From Strigops habroptila (lineage: Eukaryota > Chordata > Aves > Psittaciformes > Psittacidae), in assembly GCF_004027225.2 (NCBI RefSeq), contig NC_044282.2, positions 61,734,725-61,798,724 of the forward strand: a DNA stretch of 64,000 nucleotides. The letters are read 5' to 3'. Positions 6,770-63,308 of the stretch are shown here, in pieces. The notes under the pieces were generated by a model. That model saw only the letters and a program-made list of their open reading frames with translations, was not told where the DNA came from and searched no databases. How positions within the stretch are numbered: position 1 is the stretch's first letter; each line of letters opens with the position of its first letter. Position numbers and translations under genes: made by a program.

Positions 6770-11473
<4,704 letters not shown>

Positions 11474-11551
11474 CCCTCACTTCAGCCCAGCAAACAGCAA
11501 ATCAGAGGAAAATATTTGAACTCATGGCAATCAGTCACCTGCAGTAAAACC
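11474..11551 (-). other. Candidate 5' UTR part of kinase exon 2
   Basis: Upstream of the ATG a strong acceptor (CTTCTCTTTCAG) ends at 11552 on the minus strand, so about 78 bases of 5' UTR probably precede the start in this exon. A second AG (TGCAG, 11540) is possible. The real first exon would then lie in the CpG island near 13.1 kb. Confidence 0.45.
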
Positions 11552-35115: not shown

Positions 35116-38100
35116 TCAGTCCAGAAAGCGCTGGCAGGCTTTTTTCCACCGGCAGGCTGTGCACCACTGGTCCCGGTGCTCGATGCCATAAACCTTACGG
35201 CACTTTTTGGCTTCACCGCGGACTTTCCTGTAAAAGGGGGAAAACAAGAAATGACATTTATCGACTTGTTGCAGAACTTGGGTCATGCATCAAAGGGGTA
35301 AGGCCCTGGAACAGCAGCTGAGCATCGCTCCAGTACACCTTAGCAGAGCTGCATGAGAAGATCCCTTTGCTGATGGGCTCCACCTCTGCTCCCCTGTGGC
35401 CAGAGGGACCCTCACCTGGTGCCGATGGACACCCTGGGTGGTGAGGCGACGATCAGGTGGGACTTGAGCATTGGCGTCGGTGGCTGGGGTTCACTGAAGC
35501 TGAGTGACCGGCTCCGCACCTGTGGGAAATCAGGTGTTGAAGGGCATGCAGGATGATGCAGTCCCCCTGCTGTGCAGCCCCTGGGTGCTGCAACAGGGCA
35601 GTGGGAGACATGTCCCCGGTCCCCAAATCTGGATGCTTTAAGTAGGGAGCAATAAAGCAAAGACAAGGTCCCCCTTCAGCTCCCAGCCCAACCTTGCCGC
35701 CCGAAAGGATGAAAGGGAAACACATGCAGGACTCACCGGTGACAGGGACGGAAGGGTTGAGGTGGCAGTGGCCCAGCTGATGCTGGTGAAGATGTGGGGG
35801 GACACTGGAATTTGGATTGAGGGCAATGCCTGTGGGGGAAAAGAGGGATCAGCATTTGCCTCAGGGGCCCCCACTTCCTGTGTGTGGCCCACAGGCATTC
35901 ATCTCCCTGCAAAGACCAGCCTACAGCACCCACAAACTGCAAGCCCTGGGGCAGGATGGAAAGCCCCATGCAAGCTCCCCTCCAGTGCTGGATCCTGCTA
36001 ACATGGGGCACATCATATCCTTTCCCCGGGACAGGAATGGATATACCTGCAGCTTATGGATCTATATACCCTGTCCCTGCACTAGCTGGCAGCTCCAGAA
36101 AAGCACTCTGCTCTCAAGAAGCCCCTGCGACGAGGACCACTGGCCCACAGTGCCCACAGGGCCACCACTCCAGGTGCCCAGATTTCCTGTGCCTCACAGC
36201 TTGTGCCCTCTGCAACAAGCGTGCAGCAGAGACATGCATGATCCGGCGCGGCTGCATTCCAGTGCCGGTTATCTGCCGGCAGAAGGGCGTGTTGCATACC
36301 AGCACGGGGTAACTGCACGGGAACAGAGGCCAGCAGCTTCACCCCAGCCAAGGAGCTGTGGCAGGAGCACATAAACCACTCAACCAGGCGTTAATGAAGC
36401 TGGTTACTCAAGGGCTGAAGGACAGCCAGGCAGGGGATAGTGTTACACTGGCACCAAAGCCCCTCCAATGTGGGAGTGGCAATGAAATGTCCCTGCTGCA
36501 GCAGGGACTTGCAGCAAAACCAGGATCACAACCTGCCCTTTGCCGAGATTTCAGGAGATGACCCATCCCCAGGAGATGCCACCAGCTCACCTGGTAGGCG
36601 TGATCCGCCTGGATGTGCCAGAAGGAGCTGGGGGCAGACTGGCTTAGGGCACTGCTGGCCAGGGCGGGCTCCAGCACTGGCTGCTCCACCAGCAGCGCCT
36701 CTGGCTTCGCCAGGGCTTGCTGGATGATGATGGGGGCAGATGTGGATATAGGGCTGGTGGTGGCAGCCACCTCTGGTGCTGGCTCTTCCTTCACCTGCAC
36801 TTCAGTGTAGTAGAAATCCTCCTCTCGCTTCCGCTGGTCGGAGTCTGCGCTGTCCCTGCCGGGAGGAAAGGGGAACATCAGTGAAAAGGCAGCCCTGCTT
36901 CCATCAAGGTGAGTGGCCCCTGACTTCGCAGGGGAAGAGCGATCTTGTCTTCCCAGCTCCACTCTCAGACTCCAAAGCAACACATCAGCTGTGATCAGCA
37001 ACAGCCACTGCCTCTGCAGCAGCACTTCACGTTTCCAAGGAAGATCAATACGTCTTCCCGGGCCTTTAAAAAAAACTGGCATATTGACCAGGCACCACTG
37101 AGAATCCCCTGCTCATTTCTAATCAAGTTCACTTAGCACAGCTGCAGATGACGCCCTGCGCTTCACCCAGCAGGAAACAGCCCTGAAGTCCTGTTGATTA
37201 TTTTCCCAGCATGTTTATCCAGCCGGCACTGGATGGCAGTCCAGCGCTGCCCACTGCATCACAGCCCTTCTATCCTGGCACTTCCCAGTGTTCATGTTTG
37301 CAAGGCAGGAGAGAAAAAACCCCACACTGGAGAACATAGACAAAAGCATGAGAAAACTGAGGTTGCAGTGCGAAGTGCCACAGGCCCACAGTAGCAAAGC
37401 ACAGCAAAGTGACCCCCACACCCTCGCCACCTCGTATTTTGGGGGAATTCAGAGATCAGGACAAAGCAAAACAAAATGCCAAAGGGGCAGCCACCACCGC
37501 AATGGCATGTGGGTGCCCATGCCAGACACAACGGCCGCAGGAGGCACAGCTTTCTGGCCAGCATCCCTTGTGAAACCCAGTGGGGCTGGCGCCTGTCTGC
37601 ATGTGCCCAGAGCTCACAAGTGATCCAAACTATCCCAGTAAAAAATGCACACCCAAGCTGGGCAATCCCAAAGCCCAAATGGGGCTCCTGCACCTCCCAG
37701 AGAGCCCTGGGCTCCCTGAAGGTGGAGACACATACAAAAGTGGTTCTTGCAACATGGCTGAGAACTGCCAAACTCAGTGCAGAGAGGCCAGTATATCTGA
37801 CACTGGGAATATTTGCTGCAGGAATTACGGATTACAACATCAGCAGGACACAAGGCTTCGGTGATCAGGGAGGGATTAAGAAGGTGAAATCTTTGTCTTA
37901 CCCAAGGTGCTGGGTCTTGACGTGCCGCTTGATGCCGACAATGGAGCGCAGGACCTTGCCACAGCTTGGCCAGAGGCACTTGTACATCACCTTCACCGAG
38001 TTCTGGTGGAGAGATAGCCTATGTCGCTCCCTGCCCGGTAGCAGCACCCCCTCTAACAGGATGCCGGCTCAGCTCGAGCCACCCTACCGGTGTTGGGACA

Positions 38101-41100
38101 CCCTGCCACGGCAGCAGTACCTTTCTCTTGCGTGGAGCAGGTTCATCGAGGAGAAAGGGGTCAGAGTCGGTCTCAAAGCCATCATCCACCTGGGGAGAGC
38201 TCATGCTCTCGCTGGAGTACTTGGGGCTTCCAGCAGGGTAGGGAGGTGAAGGGGTGGAGATATCGCTGCCCCCACTCCAGTGCCCACTGGTCGTGCTGCT
38301 GCCGCTGTCTGAGACATCGCCACTCTCCTTCCATGGATCACACACTGCCCGTGAGGCTGCAGGGAGGGGACACATGTGCCATCGTCACCTCAGGGCCAAC
38401 CAACCCCCCGCCCCAGGCCAGAGACCAGCCCTGAGACTGGATCACTCACAACAACAGTTCACCTAAATCAATTTATTTTGTTAAAACCTGGCAAGGTGAA
38501 GCCTTCGCACCTTTGCTCAGTGTCAGCTCCCAATTATTAGTTGTTTATCCCTTGCTTCCCCTCCCCATGCTCCTTGGCATCAGTGCAATCCTGCAGGCAC
38601 AGCCAGCACACAGCGAGCAGCCAGCACCAGGGCACGCACATTTCCCACAGCTCCAAACAGCTATTTTTATCCCTCCGGCTGCATTTGACCCCTTGGGAAT
38701 GAAACTGCCTCTAAAAAAAGGAGCGACCGGGCGGTGCTCCCCAGTCTGGGACTCCTGCACGGGGCTCCCTGGCCCCCCAGGACGGCTGCGAAGAGCAGGG
38801 TAACCCACACCACGCTGCCAGGGGCATCACAGCTCGCTCAGCCCCAACTGGTGCTGACACCTGTGGGCTCTGCTGTGACCCTGGTGCTGCTCCCCGGCCA
38901 CCTCCAGCCCAGCAGCATCCCTGTGCCGGCAACTCTTCAACAACAGGAACAAAAAAAATGAATGCAGCCGGCAAGAGCCCCAGCAGTGAGATCCAAAGGG
39001 CTCAGCACATTTTTCCACGTCTCCTTTTCTTTCAGATGTTTTTTCTTTTTTATATATGTGTATTTTTAAAAGCATACTCACGGGGGATGCCGCTCTCGCC
39101 GGCGGGAGGGCTCTGCACCACAGGGCTGCAGGAGAGGCTCGTCAGCACCATGGCTGCCACCATCTCATCCATTTCCACAGCAGCATCAGCTTTCCTGCAC
39201 CAAGAGGGGAGAGATGCGACACATGCAGAGGAAAAGGCAGAGAAACAGTCCAGGTATGACCCACAGGGCACCCATAGGGCAACACAACCTGCAGTAGCAG
39301 CACAGGTTCACTCCCACCGCCTCCCTCCATAGACGGACTCATTTTCAAGTCACTGGGAAGGATGTTTTCTTCCCATTTGGAGGAAAAAAAAATTTAAAAT
39401 CCCCTTAATCCTAAATTTAACCATGCTCTGGATAATCCCATGGTGGGAAGGCAGATATATCCCCAGCATCACCACTCGCTCTGTTGGCATAAAACCAAGC
39501 ATGAGCGCTGCCACAGTCGCCCAGAGCCCCTCTCCCACCTAAGTGAAATCCCACCAGCCAAAGGCACGAACCTCTTGGGCACATCGATGTTGCTGGACAC
39601 GGATCTCTGCAGCAGCTCAGCAGGGGTGGGACCACCAGCTGCAGGCAGGGTAGGGGGCTGGAGCGCGGCCGGCGGCACATCCTGCACCCTCCAGCACGCC
39701 TGCAAGCCCTGCTCTGGCATCAGCACCTTCATCTTGTCGCTCAGCGTGTTGTGCTGTTCCACAAAGCCGGTGCACTCCTGCCCATTGTAGGTGATGAGGA
39801 CCTGAAAATGACATGAGGGGCGGTTTGTTGGTGCCACCCGTTGCCCTGCTGCTGCTGGGGGATGTCCTGCCATAGCACAAGCAAGCCTTTGCCAGCTGCC
39901 TGCTGCCCCTCCTCCTCCTTCTCCAGCAGAAGGGGTCACAGAAGGCTTCAGGGTGAAGCCAGAGCCTGTCATGAAAAGCTTGGACTTCAGACTGCTCTCA
40001 CAGGAAACCAAAGGGCTGGCCAGGGTTCATCCCAACCCCACCACCAAGAGATCTGCTCTTCCCAGACACAAGGTCCCTGACTCTGGCAATCCCAAGTTGA
40101 GGGATTTCCTGAGCCAGTATCAGCCACCTCTGAGTGTCAACACTCTGGGTGGACTTTTCTCCAATGAATTTGTTTGCTTTGGCTATGTTCTCATGCCATC
40201 CTACTGCAAGGAGTCCCTCAATTATTACATGCCCCGGCAAAGTACGTAGATTAAAAGCCATAGAGGGCAGGGGAACAGAGGTTTCCTGGCTGAAGTGATC
40301 CTGAATGCACACCTTGGATCCTCCAGTTCCAACTCCTCAGACACAGGAAGGACATGTGCAAACCTCACCTCGCGTCCCTCTTCAGAGTCCCAAACTCCTC
40401 CTGATGGGCAGCTTCCCACCACTACCACCCATGAACCTATTTCTGTTAGTGGAAATGTACCTGGCTGAAAGACACTACATGTGTCTCTGGCTATTCATAG
40501 GAACACGAACATCTCTTTATGGAAGTACCATGGGTGTTGTACCAAGGAGCCAACACGGGATGGACACACACCCCCATACCCTGACTGGGGAGGAGCACGC
40601 GAGACGATCTCAGGTGGGACCTCCAGCAGAAGTACCAGGGTGGAAAAAGCCACCTGCAGTGGGACCAGGGTTACAGTGATCAGCGCAAAGATCAAGACAC
40701 AGAAGACCCTGACCCTGCTTTCTGAGAACAAGGAGCAAGACTTCTCCATGAACCACACACAGCACAAGGAGCCAACATCTCCTTCAGCTTTACAGCCACT
40801 GGCACAGGTACCCCATTGCTATTTTTATGCCGTTCGCAGCAGCAAAGCAAGCAAACAAAATCCTCACAGCAGAGCACGTAGGAGAGAACAGCTCTCACTG
40901 TCCTGTGGTTAATGAACACGGGGCATGAGGAGCCAGAAAACCAAACAGGGACCTTTATTTACAATCCATTTCATGAGCTCTGCCCAGAAAAGGTTTTACA
41001 GTTCTGCAGGTAGCAGCCAAGAAACAGGCTCTATGTCAGCAGCTCATGGCTCTCCTCAAAAACTGCTGCTTGGCCAGGGATTAGCAGGAACTGTTCTGGT

Positions 41101-41962
41101 GGGATCAAGAATGAGTGCTGCTTCCTGTCCCAGGCAGCACCCTGGCCAAGGCACGGCCCTCAAGAGCCCAGGGCACAAGCAGTGTTGAGATCCAGCAGGA
41201 CTACATGTTCTTTCTGGATGAGCCATCGCACCTCAGTCTTACCTAAGCTTCTTCACCACAGACATCCCACACCATCAACCCTCAACCCTGCAGCAAAAGG
41301 GGGGGCTCCTTGCCGCTTCACTTCAGATGTAAACATGGGTTATGGGGAGATAGAACACATTCACAAAAGAGAAATCCCCTCGGAGTCACTAAACATATAG
41401 AAACCATCTCTCTTTGCCTCAGACATTTGGAAAATGCTGAGGGAAGCATGAGGTCTTATCACCTTCTTCTCTGGAGACCCACTTTTGCCTAGGATTGGAG
41501 ACATCTCCGGGAGGAGGTGGGTTTGGACCATACCAGCTCAACCAGAGATCCACCAGGTGTGGCTAGGGACACGAGCACTAACGCCAACATCCATTAATGA
41601 CTCTCAGTAACGGCAGATCCCCACTGCACTGTGCATCTGGAGAGCCCCAAGAATTCTCTCCCCCACCAGAGCACATCCCACCAGCCAAGGACACCGAGAG
41701 CCTCCTTACGTACTTGCTGCCCAGCGCAGAGCTGCTGGCAGCTGGGGCTGGGGAGCCTGGGTGTCTGGCTGCAATCCTCCGCCAACAGTGCACAGGATCC
41801 ATCCTCTTGAGGTGCCGCACAGGCGGACACCCGGCCAAGGTCGGTCTGCAAGCCAGGGATCTGGGTGGCCACCAGCACCCCATCGGCCAAGGCACCAGGG
41901 GTGGAGACGCGGGTGCCTAGCAGGGAGCGCTTCCCCAGACGCCTGGACAGCACGCTCGCCAT
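35116..41962 (-). CDS. ZNF395: Zinc finger protein 395
   Basis: Nine coding exons on the minus strand join in frame: 41962-41714, 39801-39572, 39194-39082, 38356-38121, 38002-37902, 36855-36591, 35829-35737, 35519-35416 and 35227-35116. They give 500 residues; human ZNF395 has 513. The start [16 protein letters not shown] matches human. A conserved YNGQECTG block follows residue 84, then [20 protein letters not shown]. The C2H2 finger uses C285, C290, H303 and H308. [10 protein letters not shown] at 431-440 matches the human phospho/14-3-3 site. The C-terminal C-clamp (KKCRKVYG...[11 protein letters not shown]) uses C473, C486, C489 and C495. It is a DNA-binding regulator thought to act in hypoxia and interferon-linked transcription. 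All junctions are GT-AG; one donor, GTTCGT at 39571, is weak. I prefer ZNF395 over SLC2A4RG or ZNF704 because of the N-terminal match and PNOC adjacency. Confidence 0.95.
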
Positions 41963-41972
41963 CTCGGACACC
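41963..41972 (-). other. ZNF395: 5' UTR part of ZNF395 exon 2
   Basis: The acceptor CTCTTCCACAG ends at 41973, leaving 10 bases before the ATG. An upstream GTG in the same frame is within this exon but ATG matches the human start. Confidence 0.75.
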
Positions 41973-44900
41973 CTGTGGAAGAGAAAGGCATAGGGATGTT
42001 AGGTGTACGACCTGGTGTACGACCATGAAGCTCAACCAGTGTCTTCCCACCACCACCACCCCAGGAGCCGAGAAAGCAGCTCTCTGCTGCTCCAGCATTC
42101 CCATGTGCCGAGACCCCTTGGGGACACAGGGACAGCAGCATGCCTGAACACCTCACCCCACACCCTCAACTCTTGTCTTTACAGTCATTTCTAAACTCCT
42201 CTGGAGAAAAAAAAAAAAGGACGAACCAGCTCCAAGGAAACCCCACGGACATAGTCAGGACAGCCCCTTGAGCCAACACTGGCACACACTCCGGAGGCCA
42301 TCGCAGCTATACCCTTCCACCACGCTAAAACCGGCCGTTGGTGCTCTTCAACCTTGACCTCTAGACTTGGGCCTGTGCCCAGCGCAGTGCTGCAACTCCC
42401 CTGCCTGCGCCCCGGCAGGGGACAAAAGCCCTCCAGCAGCAAAAGGCAGTGCCCTTTCTCAGCTGGTATTCCCATGGCCCCCTTTTCTGGAGCTCTCGTA
42501 CTTTTGGGAAAGGTTTCTCCACGCTTGCAGCTCATGCCCAGCCAGGGTTTGTCTGGCGACAAAACAGGAGCATCCTCCTGCCTTGCTTTATTAGAAAAGG
42601 AACTATTTGGAGCATTTTTATCCTAAACTGTCCCTCTGTAACTCTGTAAACTATTTTTCCCCCCCTTTCCCCCTGACATAGATTTTCCTCCTGTTAGTGC
42701 AGCTCTGCAAGCAAGCCTATCCAGAGCCTGGCTCATTTCTTTGGGTCAGGAGATTTTACTATTGTTTTAGAAAAAACAAGTGTTTACAAGTTTCCCTAAA
42801 AGCAAGGGACATCCAGGCCTGGGGAGAGATGTTTCATCCCGCCCTGATAAATCCAATGGCCCTAGCAGCACACACTGTCCTGCTCTGTCCCATCCTCCTC
42901 CCAGTGTCTCCTCCACTGCAATACCAAGGAGCACAGGAAGTGAGGATCCACACTGCAGCGAGGCCAAAGAGGATGGTGCCTGGGGATTGGGAGGAGGGTG
43001 AAGAGGGAGAGGAGGCAAGAGGCTTGGTGCAGCCCTGTGTCTTAGGGTGAACCGTAAAAGCCACACGCTTTTGTACCACAACAAACCCACCACCTTTGTC
43101 ACCCTGCCTGGGCTTGTGAGCGAGTGCCACCCAACCAGCCAGGGACCGCGGGTGTCTGGTTGGAGAGTAACCTGGGATACCGGGAATCCAAGTCTGAGGA
43201 GCTGCTGCTTGTGCAAGAGGGAGGATCGACCCTGAGCTGCCAGGCCCTTGTACCCAGGCCCTCTCCTCCTTGAACAGGATCACTGTCACGAAGCGACAGT
43301 GTTTTAATAGCAAATGCCACATTATTTTGTGTTTACTCAGTGAGGTTTTTTGGTTTACGCAGCACTCTCTTGCACGCTATCTTGGATGAGAAAAGTTTCC
43401 TGACAAGGGAAGGGGAGCTTGTTGCTCCTCTTGATCTCCAGCCATCCCAGGAAGGGTTACTTACTCCAAGCCATGTCCCACTTCAAAGGACACCCAAGAT
43501 TTACAAGCAGTGGTATGAATGACCGTATGTTATTCAGCTCAGCTCGCTTTGTCCTCCCCCAAAATCCCACTGTCCCCAAGTAGAAAATTAACAGCTATTT
43601 AGGAGCCAAAAGAATAGAGCAGGGAGAGAGGGAGAGGGTGTGAAACGGATGGAGGTTTGTTGGGGAGAGCACCTCATGCCAGGGCTGCCCAGCCCACAGT
43701 GCACAGGGACTTCACCACTGCCATATTCCCACCGGAACAGGACAGGAGGCCGCGGCAGCCGGCCAAGCAGAGCCACTCCCTGGGCTTCCCTCTCATCTCA
43801 CCCTGTCTGAGGAACATGCCAGATTTTGCAGCACACAGGCATCACTGGAGGATGCTCCTGGGACCACTCTGTCTGATAAGGTCTTTTTTTTTTTCCACGG
43901 TACATGTGTTGTGATGAACATGGGTGACCTGGCCAAGCAGCTCTGCTCCCAGATCTACACGCCCAATTTGGACTTTCCAATCCAAAAGGAGACCAAAAGG
44001 GCTGACAGGCGGACACAACAGTTTGTCTCAAATCCCAGAGTGAAGCTGCAGCAAAGCCCCTCCATGGGCATTAACCACCAGACCACATTTCCTCCCACAT
44101 CACCTTAAACCCTCGCTCTCAGATACCCTAGGCACTGGGAACTGCCCCTCCAAGGGCTCAGGGAGTCAACACGGCAACGTCGGTGCCACCACTACATGAA
44201 AAACAGCGCCGAACCTCCACCGCCTCCCCGATGGTCAGCGCACACCGGTTTGAAGGCAGCACTTGGCCAGTGGCCAGATGTGGGGAGGGCAACACCAAAG
44301 GTGGGAAGCTGCTTCTCATTTCCTTCGTGGTTTCATATCGCCTTCCCTTTCCTTCCTCCCCCAGTCCACGGGGGGGGGAGTGGAAAGGAGGAAAGAGGCG
44401 CGCTTGCAGCCAGGGGGGAAGAAAACCTTCCCAAAAGCCGCTCAACAGTCACATCTGCTTCCAGCAGACCTTTGAATGCCAGACCCATTTTGACACTCAG
44501 CCCATAGCCGAGGGTGACAATACCAATGCCAAAAAATCCTTCTCCCTCCCTACCCATGCCCCAAAACACAAAGCAAGAGGAGCAAGAGTGGGGAGGGGAT
44601 CAGCGGCGCAGGCGGAGCCAGGAGGCCACGCTGCTGCCGCCGCCGCAAGCCCTCCCAGCTGTTAGCAATCACGCGCCGCAGGGGTCAGAGCCGGCACAGA
44701 TCCCAAATTATTTCTTGCTTCAATGCCGGGCGTGTATTTTGGACGGCGTTTTTCCAGCTCTTGCCGGGGGAAAACGTCAGCCCCTGTTCCTACCGGTGTT
44801 GCTGCCGCTAGCAGAGCAAAGCCTGGGTGGAGGTTTTGGGAAAGCGGGTGTCCCGTTTGGCAAATGAGGAATGCTCCGCTTAGCAAGCAGGAAGGTCAGG

Positions 44901-58758: not shown

Positions 58759-59298
58759 GGGAAGACAGATGAGTGTGCAGGAAGGAGAATGAGTGTACAG
58801 GAAGGCAGGTGAGCATATAGGGAGGCAGATGAGTGTGCTGGAAGGCAGGTGAGCATATAGAAAGGTGGATGGGCATATAGGAAAGCAGGTGAGCATATAT
58901 GAAGGAACATGAGCATATAGGAAGGTGGATGAGTGTGTAGGAAGACAAGTGAGTGTATAGGAAGGCAGGTGAGTGTATAGGAGACAGATGAGCATACAGG
59001 AAGACACATGAGCATATAGGAAGACAGATGAGCATATGGGAAGGCAGGTGAGTGTGTAGGAAGGTGGATGAGTGTATAGGAAAGCAGGTGAGTTTATAGG
59101 AGGGCAGATGAGTGTATAGGAGACAGATTAGCATATAGGAAGTCAGTTGAGCATATGGGAAGGCAGGTGGGTGTGTAGGAAGATGTGTGAGTGTATAGAG
59201 AGGTAGGTGAGTGTATAGGAAGGCATATGACCATGTAGGAACACAGATGAGCATATAGGAAGGCAGGTGAGTGTGCAGGAAGGTAGGTGAGCATATAG
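58759..59298. repeat. 20-bp minisatellite, about 27 imperfect copies
   Basis: The unit is close to GGAAGGCAGGTGAGCATATA. Because 20 is not a multiple of 3, the minus strand reads as a 20-residue repeating FLYAHLP-like pattern with no stop; this is a by-product of the repeat and not a gene. Confidence 0.95.
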
Positions 59299-61616: not shown

Positions 61617-62092
61617 CTATCCCACATCAAAGCGCTTTTCTGGCAGTGATGGAGCTTCTTCTTCTTCCTGGGGCTCAGGGGGCCCAGCAGGCTGCCGGCG
61701 CTGTTTGCACACCTGGGCATACACAGGAACGGGGCTCCCCTCACTGCCCGGCTGCTCCTGGGTGATGATCTCCTGCACGGAGATGCTCAGCTCATCCCCA
61801 GTGGTCAGGGATGGGGAGTCCCCCTGGACGCTGCCAGCATCCCCAGGCTTTTTCTGCGTCCCAGATTTGTACCGGATGCTTTCATAGATTCGTCCATCGG
61901 GATCTGGCATAGGGTCCACCATAGATGTGCTGGTGTCCCCGGGCAGAACTGGCAACTCCCGGTGCCGCAGAAACTCTGGAGTCCTCAAGACTGGTTCGGA
62001 GGGTGTGTGGGAATTGGGTATGCAGCCTGGCACGTGCAGCCTGGGGTCCCCTGCTGTGGGGTTATCCTGGAGCTCACCAGGAGAGGGGGTGC
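61617..62092 (-). CDS. Terminal coding exon of a PAG1/LIME1-like transmembrane adaptor
   Basis: The exon opens at a good acceptor (TTTTCCTTCCCTGCAG) in phase 1 and runs 157 codons to TAG. It encodes an acidic, Pro/Ser-rich cytoplasmic-tail-like sequence with two tyrosine motifs. GRIYESIRYKSG resembles the VYESIREL site of LIME1 and YESI of PAG1. PVYAQVCKQRR resembles LYSRVCKPKRR of LIME1. RHRELPVLP matches the RELPxxP block of PAG1. In this family such tyrosines are phosphorylated by Src kinases and bind SH2 proteins such as CSK. A following EEEEAPSLPEKR segment closes the tail. N-terminal and membrane exons are not identified and may lie at or beyond 62.5-64 kb. It lies upstream of ZNF395 in the same orientation, as PAG1 does to ZNF704. 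The family call is a judgement from motifs. Confidence 0.6.
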
Positions 62093-62117
62093 CTGCAGGG
62101 AAGGAAAATTGGGGGTT

Positions 62118-62222
62118 ATAGAATCATAGAACCATAGAATGGTTTGGGTTGGAAGGGAACTTAAAGCTCATCCAGTTCTAACCCCCTGCCATGAGCAGGG
62201 ACACCTTCCACTGGACTGGAGA
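62118..62222 (-). repeat. CR1 3' fragment just upstream of the PAG-like exon
   Basis: It starts TAGAATCATAGAACCATAGA on the plus strand and is in sense orientation relative to the PAG-like gene. Its 3' tail ends about 25 bases from the splice acceptor at 62093, so the branch-point region may come from the element. Confidence 0.93.
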
Positions 62223-62795: not shown

Positions 62796-63308
62796 CTGAG
62801 CACCCCAACATGAGCGCTCCAGCATGAGCATTCCAGCATGAGCACCCCCATGTGAGCACACAAACATGAGCATTCAAACGTGAGACCCCAATATGAACAC
62901 CCCAATGTGAGCATCCCCAGCATGAGCACCCCAGAATGAGCACCCCAGTGTGAGCACCCAAACATAAGCATTCAAATGTGAGCACCCCCAGCATGAGCAC
63001 CCCAACACATGCACCCCAGCATGAGCACCCTAATGTGAGCACCCCCCAGTGTGAGCACCCCAACATGAGCACCTCAGTATGAGCACCCCAGTGTGAGCAC
63101 TGCTTGCATCCTGTGAGCGCTCCAACACGAGCACTCCAACATGAGCACCCCCGCATGACCATCCCAAAGCGAACATCCCAACCCGACCACCCCAGTGTGA
63201 GCACCCCAACACAAGCACCCGGTGTGAGCACCCAGATGCGAGCATCCCAATGCGAGCATCCCAATATGGGCACCCCACTGTGAGCCCCCCACTGTGAGCC
63301 CCTTTACG
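62796..63308. repeat. About 15-bp minisatellite (CCAACATGAGCACCC-like), about 30 copies
   Basis: Imperfect copies of a CCAGCATGAGCACCC unit, with length variants of 10-17 bp, run without a break. The minus-strand translation reads as G/C/L-rich repeating residues, a by-product of the repeat. Confidence 0.95.

Follow-up and report, generated by a model that had tools for sequence, protein, structure and literature searches.

PAG1 (also named Cbp; Pfam PF15347) and LIME1 (PF15332) are well-known transmembrane recruiters of Csk and take part in shutting down Src-family kinases. A single membrane span followed by cytoplasmic tyrosine motifs is likewise found in LAT, NTAL, SIT, PRR7 and SCIMP, for which we know of no synteny with the ZNF395 family. 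Motifs are discussed below with reference to the general consensus for class-I SH3 ligands, [RK]xxPxxP, and to that for SH2 sites. As described in PMC3167820, Src-family kinases (SFKs) phosphorylate PAG at Y314 (mouse) or Y317 (human), Csk docks there by SH2, and PAG harbors likely Fyn SH3 and SH2 sites. Passages from other reports state that Cbp is bound by Fyn and Lyn via SH2 and SH3 (PMC3968143), that LIME is another Csk adaptor (PMC9792154), and that a CxxC motif is the palmitoylation site of both PAG and LIME (PMC7655920). A PAG mutated in the palmitoylation motif is reported in the same paper to recruit Csk still, to have left the rafts and to inhibit proximal TCR signalling no longer (PMC7655920).

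In the genome of Strigops habroptila, PAG1 was located with the Pfam PAG profile (seven places, four of them above the cut-off) at C1:29112767-29126848 (+); its exon phases are 2, 0, 1, 0, 0. The Pfam LIME1 profile matched two places, both on C13 (-), the better one with 29.1 bits and E 3.9e-4; among 14 control genomes, E. coli alone was matched as well, under the cut-off. The Strigops LIME1 gene is found at approximately 15.0105-15.0130 Mb of C13 (-), where the N-terminal part matches Pfam LIME1 with E 5.6e-18 and the last exon matches no Pfam model; the phases are 2, 0, 1 and, when exon 4 is read in the frame of its last part, 0. Within this exon (C13 ~15.0119-15.0123 Mb) YSNLL, YECV and YACV are located in three different reading frames, i.e., there are frameshifts, which reflect either real decay or a faulty assembly of the GC-rich sequence. 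The juxtamembrane motif is CSSC in PAG1 and CAAC in LIME1. Furthermore, PAG1 exon 6 starts with ISAMYSSVSK and LIME1 exon 5 with LEEMYSTVCK, and the C-terminal ends are FTRL and ITNL, respectively; the similar starts and ends of the last exons speak for a kinship of the two genes.

The locus described here was analyzed in a stretch of 64,000 nucleotides (the window; C6:61734725-61798724, contig NC_044282.2), in which positions are counted from the first letter, and a further 40 kb of the same contig beyond the window end was examined for additional exons. The gene model and its motifs are as follows.

Exon A, C6:61804959-61804853, minus strand, ~6 kb past the window end: ATG and leucine-rich membrane span, MAPVLVEGSAATVAWGLATTGLLLLLLLLLCSFFQ+AG; donor gtatgt, phase 2.
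Exon B, C6:61804513-61804456, minus strand: juxtamembrane stretch, (R)ANRPSSQETKQNPEPVQG; donor gtgagt, phase 0.
Candidate exon C, window 62605-62554, minus strand: 52 nt, EENTQVTRLFQCLLCLW; open, phase 0 in and 1 out.
Exon D, window 62092-61617, minus strand: terminal coding exon including the stop codon; 158 residues counting the split codon, phase 1 in.
RELPVLP, window 61941-61961, minus strand: resembles a class-I SH3 ligand; compared with SRELPSIP of Strigops PAG1 and HRELPQIP of LIME1.
YESI, window 61875-61886, minus strand: first candidate phosphotyrosine motif, from motif reading.
YAQV followed by CKQRR, window 61710-61721, minus strand: candidate Csk-SH2 site; position matches that of PAG1 YASV and LIME1 YACV.

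Exon D is the part of the gene that was noticed in the first-pass annotation, which had claimed a minus-strand exon with YESIR, YAQVCKQRR and RELPxxP motifs. The exon is confirmed as real and coding-like, and the motifs are present: the list of window ORFs includes a minus-strand ORF (62123-61617) that contains RELPVLP, YESI and YAQVCKQRR, in this order, followed by a stop codon. A strong acceptor (...ttttccttccctgcag; score 12.76, second among the four acceptors of the gene) has its final base at 62093, so that exon D begins at 62092. Naive translation from this position meets three stops, while the phase-1 frame, in which the first codon is split over the intron, is open. The length of the ORF by itself proves nothing, because stop-to-stop ORFs of 100 aa or longer number 208 in the window; a 159-residue ORF on the plus strand overlaps exon D. 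In terms of codon preference (statistics trained on 648 codons, taken from PAG1 and LIME1 and from two other window exons) the exon D frame scores 0.287 bits/codon, as compared to -0.344 to 0.017 for the other five frames, and the ORF is ranked fifth among the 208. The four ORFs ranked higher are a kinase exon from the training set, a frame overlapping the kinase exon and two that look by eye like retroelement remnants. A genome-wide protein search (1.15 Gb, 89 contigs; E up to 0.001) with the exon D protein yielded one place, i.e., exon D itself.

By eye, a CR1-like 3' tail in the orientation of the gene is found at 62115-62200 (-) and stops ~25 bases short of the exon D acceptor. Degenerate minisatellites flank the exon at 62797-63291 (14/28-base period), immediately upstream of candidate exon C in the direction of the gene, and at 58760-59298 (20/139-base period).

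As in PAG1 and LIME1, the first coding exon, exon A, holds a short N-terminus and one membrane span that finishes near the exon border. The Cys-rich N-terminal membrane exons anticipated in the first-pass annotation did not materialize; exon A is instead leucine-rich and has one cysteine, at the inner end of the span, giving CSFF where CxxC was expected. Candidate exon C is the sole acceptor/donor pair of 24-200 nt across 1907 bases (four acceptors, three donors) in a search that is partly circular, the splice-site thresholds having been taken from its own scores. The phases of this exon equal those of exon 3 of PAG1 and LIME1. It is referred to as no more than a candidate because its donor is the weakest (4.88 versus 6.87-11.33 for eight others scored) and because it displays no similarity to its PAG1 and LIME1 counterparts; the identity may be wrong also because ~7 kb separate it from exon B and ~5 kb of this, between exon B and the window end, is masked. 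Irrespective of exon C, the phase at the start of exon D is 1. The intron phases of the new gene are then 2 after exon A, 0 after exon B and 1 after exon C, and this series of 2, 0, 1, the third member of which depends on candidate exon C, is common to PAG1, LIME1 and the new gene.

The product is predicted to be a small single-pass membrane adaptor of ~229 residues, or 212 if candidate exon C is omitted. The predicted order of domains is a short N-terminus, the leucine-rich span and one cysteine; a juxtamembrane stretch then leads on to the tail, which bears RELPVLP and the two tyrosine motifs. In this tail YAQV follows RELPVLP, i.e., by motif reading a Csk-SH2-like motif comes after an SH3-ligand-like motif, which is the order seen in PAG1. 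The new gene terminates within its counterpart of PAG1 and LIME1 exon 4, at an in-frame stop in exon D ahead of C-terminal exons of the PAG1/LIME1 type, and several YxxI/V motifs as well as the hydrophobic PDZ-like end are absent. Read from its sequence, the gene is thus divergent in the parts that bear function, with one membrane-proximal cysteine and a stop before the C-terminal exons.

The main rival explanation starts from the same descent and takes the gene for a decaying relic, which lost the palmitoylation pair and the C-terminal exons and no longer works as an adaptor. The CSFF sequence in place of CxxC and the early stop in exon D are in line with such decay, as are the weak donor of candidate exon C, the CR1 tail that comes shortly before the acceptor of exon D (by eye) and the nearby minisatellite. 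The same holds for the search for a C-terminal exon: there is no convincing one among the 748 window ORFs of 50+ aa (best profile match E 0.71, on the plus strand), and the two minus-strand matches between ZNF395 and exon D among ORFs of this size reach only E 9.2 and 9.3. However, the frame is open, the splice sites are consistent in phase across four exons, codon use is coding-like, and the SH3-ligand and tyrosine motifs are intact; we therefore consider a relic unlikely.

A comparison with each of the two known adaptors reveals a shared plan with different losses. Together with PAG1, the new gene has the phases 2-0-1, a ZNF395-family gene head-to-tail downstream, a first exon that encodes the membrane span and has a WG pair, the RELPxxP motif, and a YASV-like site behind which come basic residues and, after these, an acidic stretch bearing proline. 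Unlike PAG1, it does not have CxxC, most of the tyrosines, the last two exons or the C-terminal FTRL end of Strigops PAG1, and there is no significant full-length match between the two; human PAG1 has 432 residues and ends with ITRL, as compared to ~229 residues for the new gene. With LIME1 it has in common the phases, HRELP and the PTAG/DP/H stretch ahead of it, Y-x-x-V followed by basic residues, and the ZNF395-family gene located head-to-tail downstream. In contrast to LIME1, in which the motif is CAAC in Strigops, CxxC is missing, as is the last LIME1 exon, which carries YESI, YEAV, YESV and the ITNL end, and the juxtamembrane region is unalignable.

Similarity at the level of individual exons was evaluated using three scoring schemes with 2000 shuffles each, where the figures given are the numbers of shuffles that equal or beat the score. 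For exon A these numbers are 12, 1 and 2 against PAG1 exon 1, and 840, 277 and 276 against LIME1 exon 1. Exon D gave 152, 44 and 18 against Strigops PAG1 exon 4 and 332, 147 and 51 against Strigops LIME1; with human sequences, the numbers are 1306, 37 and 11 (PAG1) and 76, 264 and 318 (LIME1). Control comparisons of PAG1 with LIME1 yielded 88, 35 and 24 in Strigops and 53, 100 and 203 in human. By these alignments exon D and LIME1 would be about equally near to PAG1, with no strong similarity in any of these comparisons. Exon B was no better than shuffles against PAG1 (1745, 1949, 1635) or LIME1 (1301, 962, 1155), nor was exon C (1162, 543, 570 and 583, 1860, 1867, respectively). In local alignments with whole human proteins, the score of exon D was reached by 276 and 604 of 1000 shuffles for PAG1 and by 109 and 213 for LIME1; human PAG1 against LIME1 was likewise not significant (52 and 246 of 1000).

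Profile methods gave a similar picture. A home-made HMM of exon 4 from PAG1 and LIME1 jointly placed the exon D ORF first among the 748 window ORFs, at 6.8 bits and E 0.24, with none of 2000 shuffles above it (top shuffle 5.8 bits). An HMM from PAG alone gave -0.2 bits for this ORF. With LIME alone, the ORF scored 5.9 bits and was third, after two alternative frames of this stretch (8.6 and 6.4 bits), and at least five shuffles were above it (the five best at 6.5 to 10.7 bits). A Pfam scan of exon D, of three pieces of this exon and of the spliced protein, whether exon C was included or not, gave no PAG or LIME1 match. The profile search proposed in the first-pass annotation thus returned no significant match to either family, but of human PAG1 and LIME1, too, neither is recognized by the Pfam model of the other. 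A sequence search of the PDB returned 0 matches, and among viral and prokaryote contigs there were 16 and 115 pattern matches, respectively, none of them confirmed, which is what an animal gene would give.

The phylogeny that had also been proposed, an unrooted tree of five sequences, sets the new gene on a separate long branch, outside the pair formed by the PAG1 sequences (support 84) and outside that of LIME1 (100); with 49 informative sites, a poor alignment and LIME1 HRELP misplaced, it is given little weight. A recent, lineage-specific duplication of PAG1 or LIME1, instead of an ohnologue, has nothing in its favor beyond the family resemblance and is hardly credible in view of the deep divergence, the branching outside both pairs, read with the caution due to that alignment, and a location where the ohnologue paired with ZNF395 is expected.

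The claim that the new gene belongs to this family is carried by gene structure and synteny; sequence alone would not suffice. Two exons of the downstream partner gene are found in the window.

ZNF395 exon, ORF at window 38022-38384, minus strand: named by comparison with the human sequence.
ZNF395 ATG exon, within the ORF at window 41594-41998, minus strand: start recognized against human ZNF395.

Judged by the human start, we take both ORFs to be ZNF395. A genome search with the ZNF395 ORF returned seven places, the best three of which are on C6 (the ORF itself), on C1 (E 7.0e-9) and on C13 (E 0.0017), followed by one at E 0.13. The paralogue at C1:29223436 (+) is located ~97 kb downstream of PAG1 and that at C13:15002987 (-) ~7 kb downstream of LIME1, in both cases on the same strand as the adaptor; going by the human gene order, they are presumably ZNF704 and SLC2A4RG. 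An adaptor head-to-tail upstream of a ZNF395-family gene is therefore found three times, i.e., PAG1 on C1 (+), LIME1 on C13 (-) and the new gene on C6 (-). Stathmin genes at C1:29.62, C13:15.12 and C6:62.14 Mb are each within at most 0.5 Mb of such a pair; a fourth is found at C12:1.40 Mb. From the repeated adaptor/ZNF395-family pairing and the stathmin genes in all three regions it follows that the three adaptor/zinc-finger pairs are parts of one paralogon. In view of what is known of these families, the natural reading is that the pairs originate from the early vertebrate genome duplications.

On the other side of ZNF395, FBXO16, the neighbor of human ZNF395, is located at C6:61604720-61606217 (+), ~130 kb before the window start, and in Strigops neither adjoins ZNF395 nor resides upstream of it as in human; we attribute the difference in position to a local rearrangement in one lineage. 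FBXO16 was ruled out as the owner of exon D, its best matches being elsewhere and on the opposite strand. A protein kinase gene (ORF at window 10916-11476, minus strand, Pkinase E 3.5e-26; additional exons, read by eye, are placed at 6770-7114 and 8901-9209) looks by eye like PDIK1L/STK35 and resides between FBXO16 and a PNOC-like gene, for which the opioid-peptide Pfam match is under its cut-off.

The synteny bears also on the explanation that the gene is not related to PAG, but encodes a disordered or transmembrane protein of another family, or joins exons of two genes, with Yxx[IV] and RELPxxP having converged by chance. The insignificant pairwise and Pfam similarity of exon D and the distance of ~7 kb from exon B to exon C, of which 5 kb is masked, would fit this view, but it leaves the threefold synteny with matching orientation and the resemblance of membrane exon A to PAG1 exon 1 to coincidence. 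So, too, the three matching phases, expected blindly in 1 of 27 cases, or nearer 1 in 9 to 1 in 27 since exon C was partly selected by phase. We consider such convergence very improbable.

From the threefold pairing, the phases 2-0-1 and the stathmin genes we conclude that the new gene is very probably a third ohnologue of the PAG1/LIME1 family by descent, the partner of the ZNF395 copy, in support of the first-pass suggestion that it is the missing adaptor partner in the ZNF395 family. The best explanation as a whole, i.e., a third family gene on the ZNF395 side of a three-way paralogon that encodes a small single-pass adaptor, is probably correct. A search of the open-access literature found no title on a third PAG/LIME gene; an automatic annotation of the locus may already exist.

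The motifs suggest a mechanism for the new gene, towards which we lean slightly. An SFK would dock through its SH3 domain on RELPVLP and phosphorylate YESI and YAQV; phosphorylated YAQV would recruit Csk, which in turn would phosphorylate the inhibitory tail tyrosine of the kinase. Because CSFF replaces the CxxC pair and the PDZ-like end is absent, the protein would be held less in rafts and would have no link to PDZ scaffolds, and may act as a stripped-down Csk recruiter or as a competitor of PAG1.

A third relative beside ZNF395 places PAG1 and LIME1 in one paralogon with a common gene plan. According to an unpublished remark in PMC3167820, mice without both PAG1 and LIME1 are viable and fertile. 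Tentatively, vertebrates after the duplications may have had three Csk-recruiting adaptors of the PAG type, the third of which was lost in mammals, while the present lineage may keep it as a trimmed, weakly raft-anchored protein that either recruits Csk outside rafts or competes naturally with PAG1 and LIME1. The new gene offers an outgroup for asking which of the adaptor motifs are ancestral, and a natural experiment in which an adaptor of this kind lacks both the raft anchor CxxC and a PDZ-like end.
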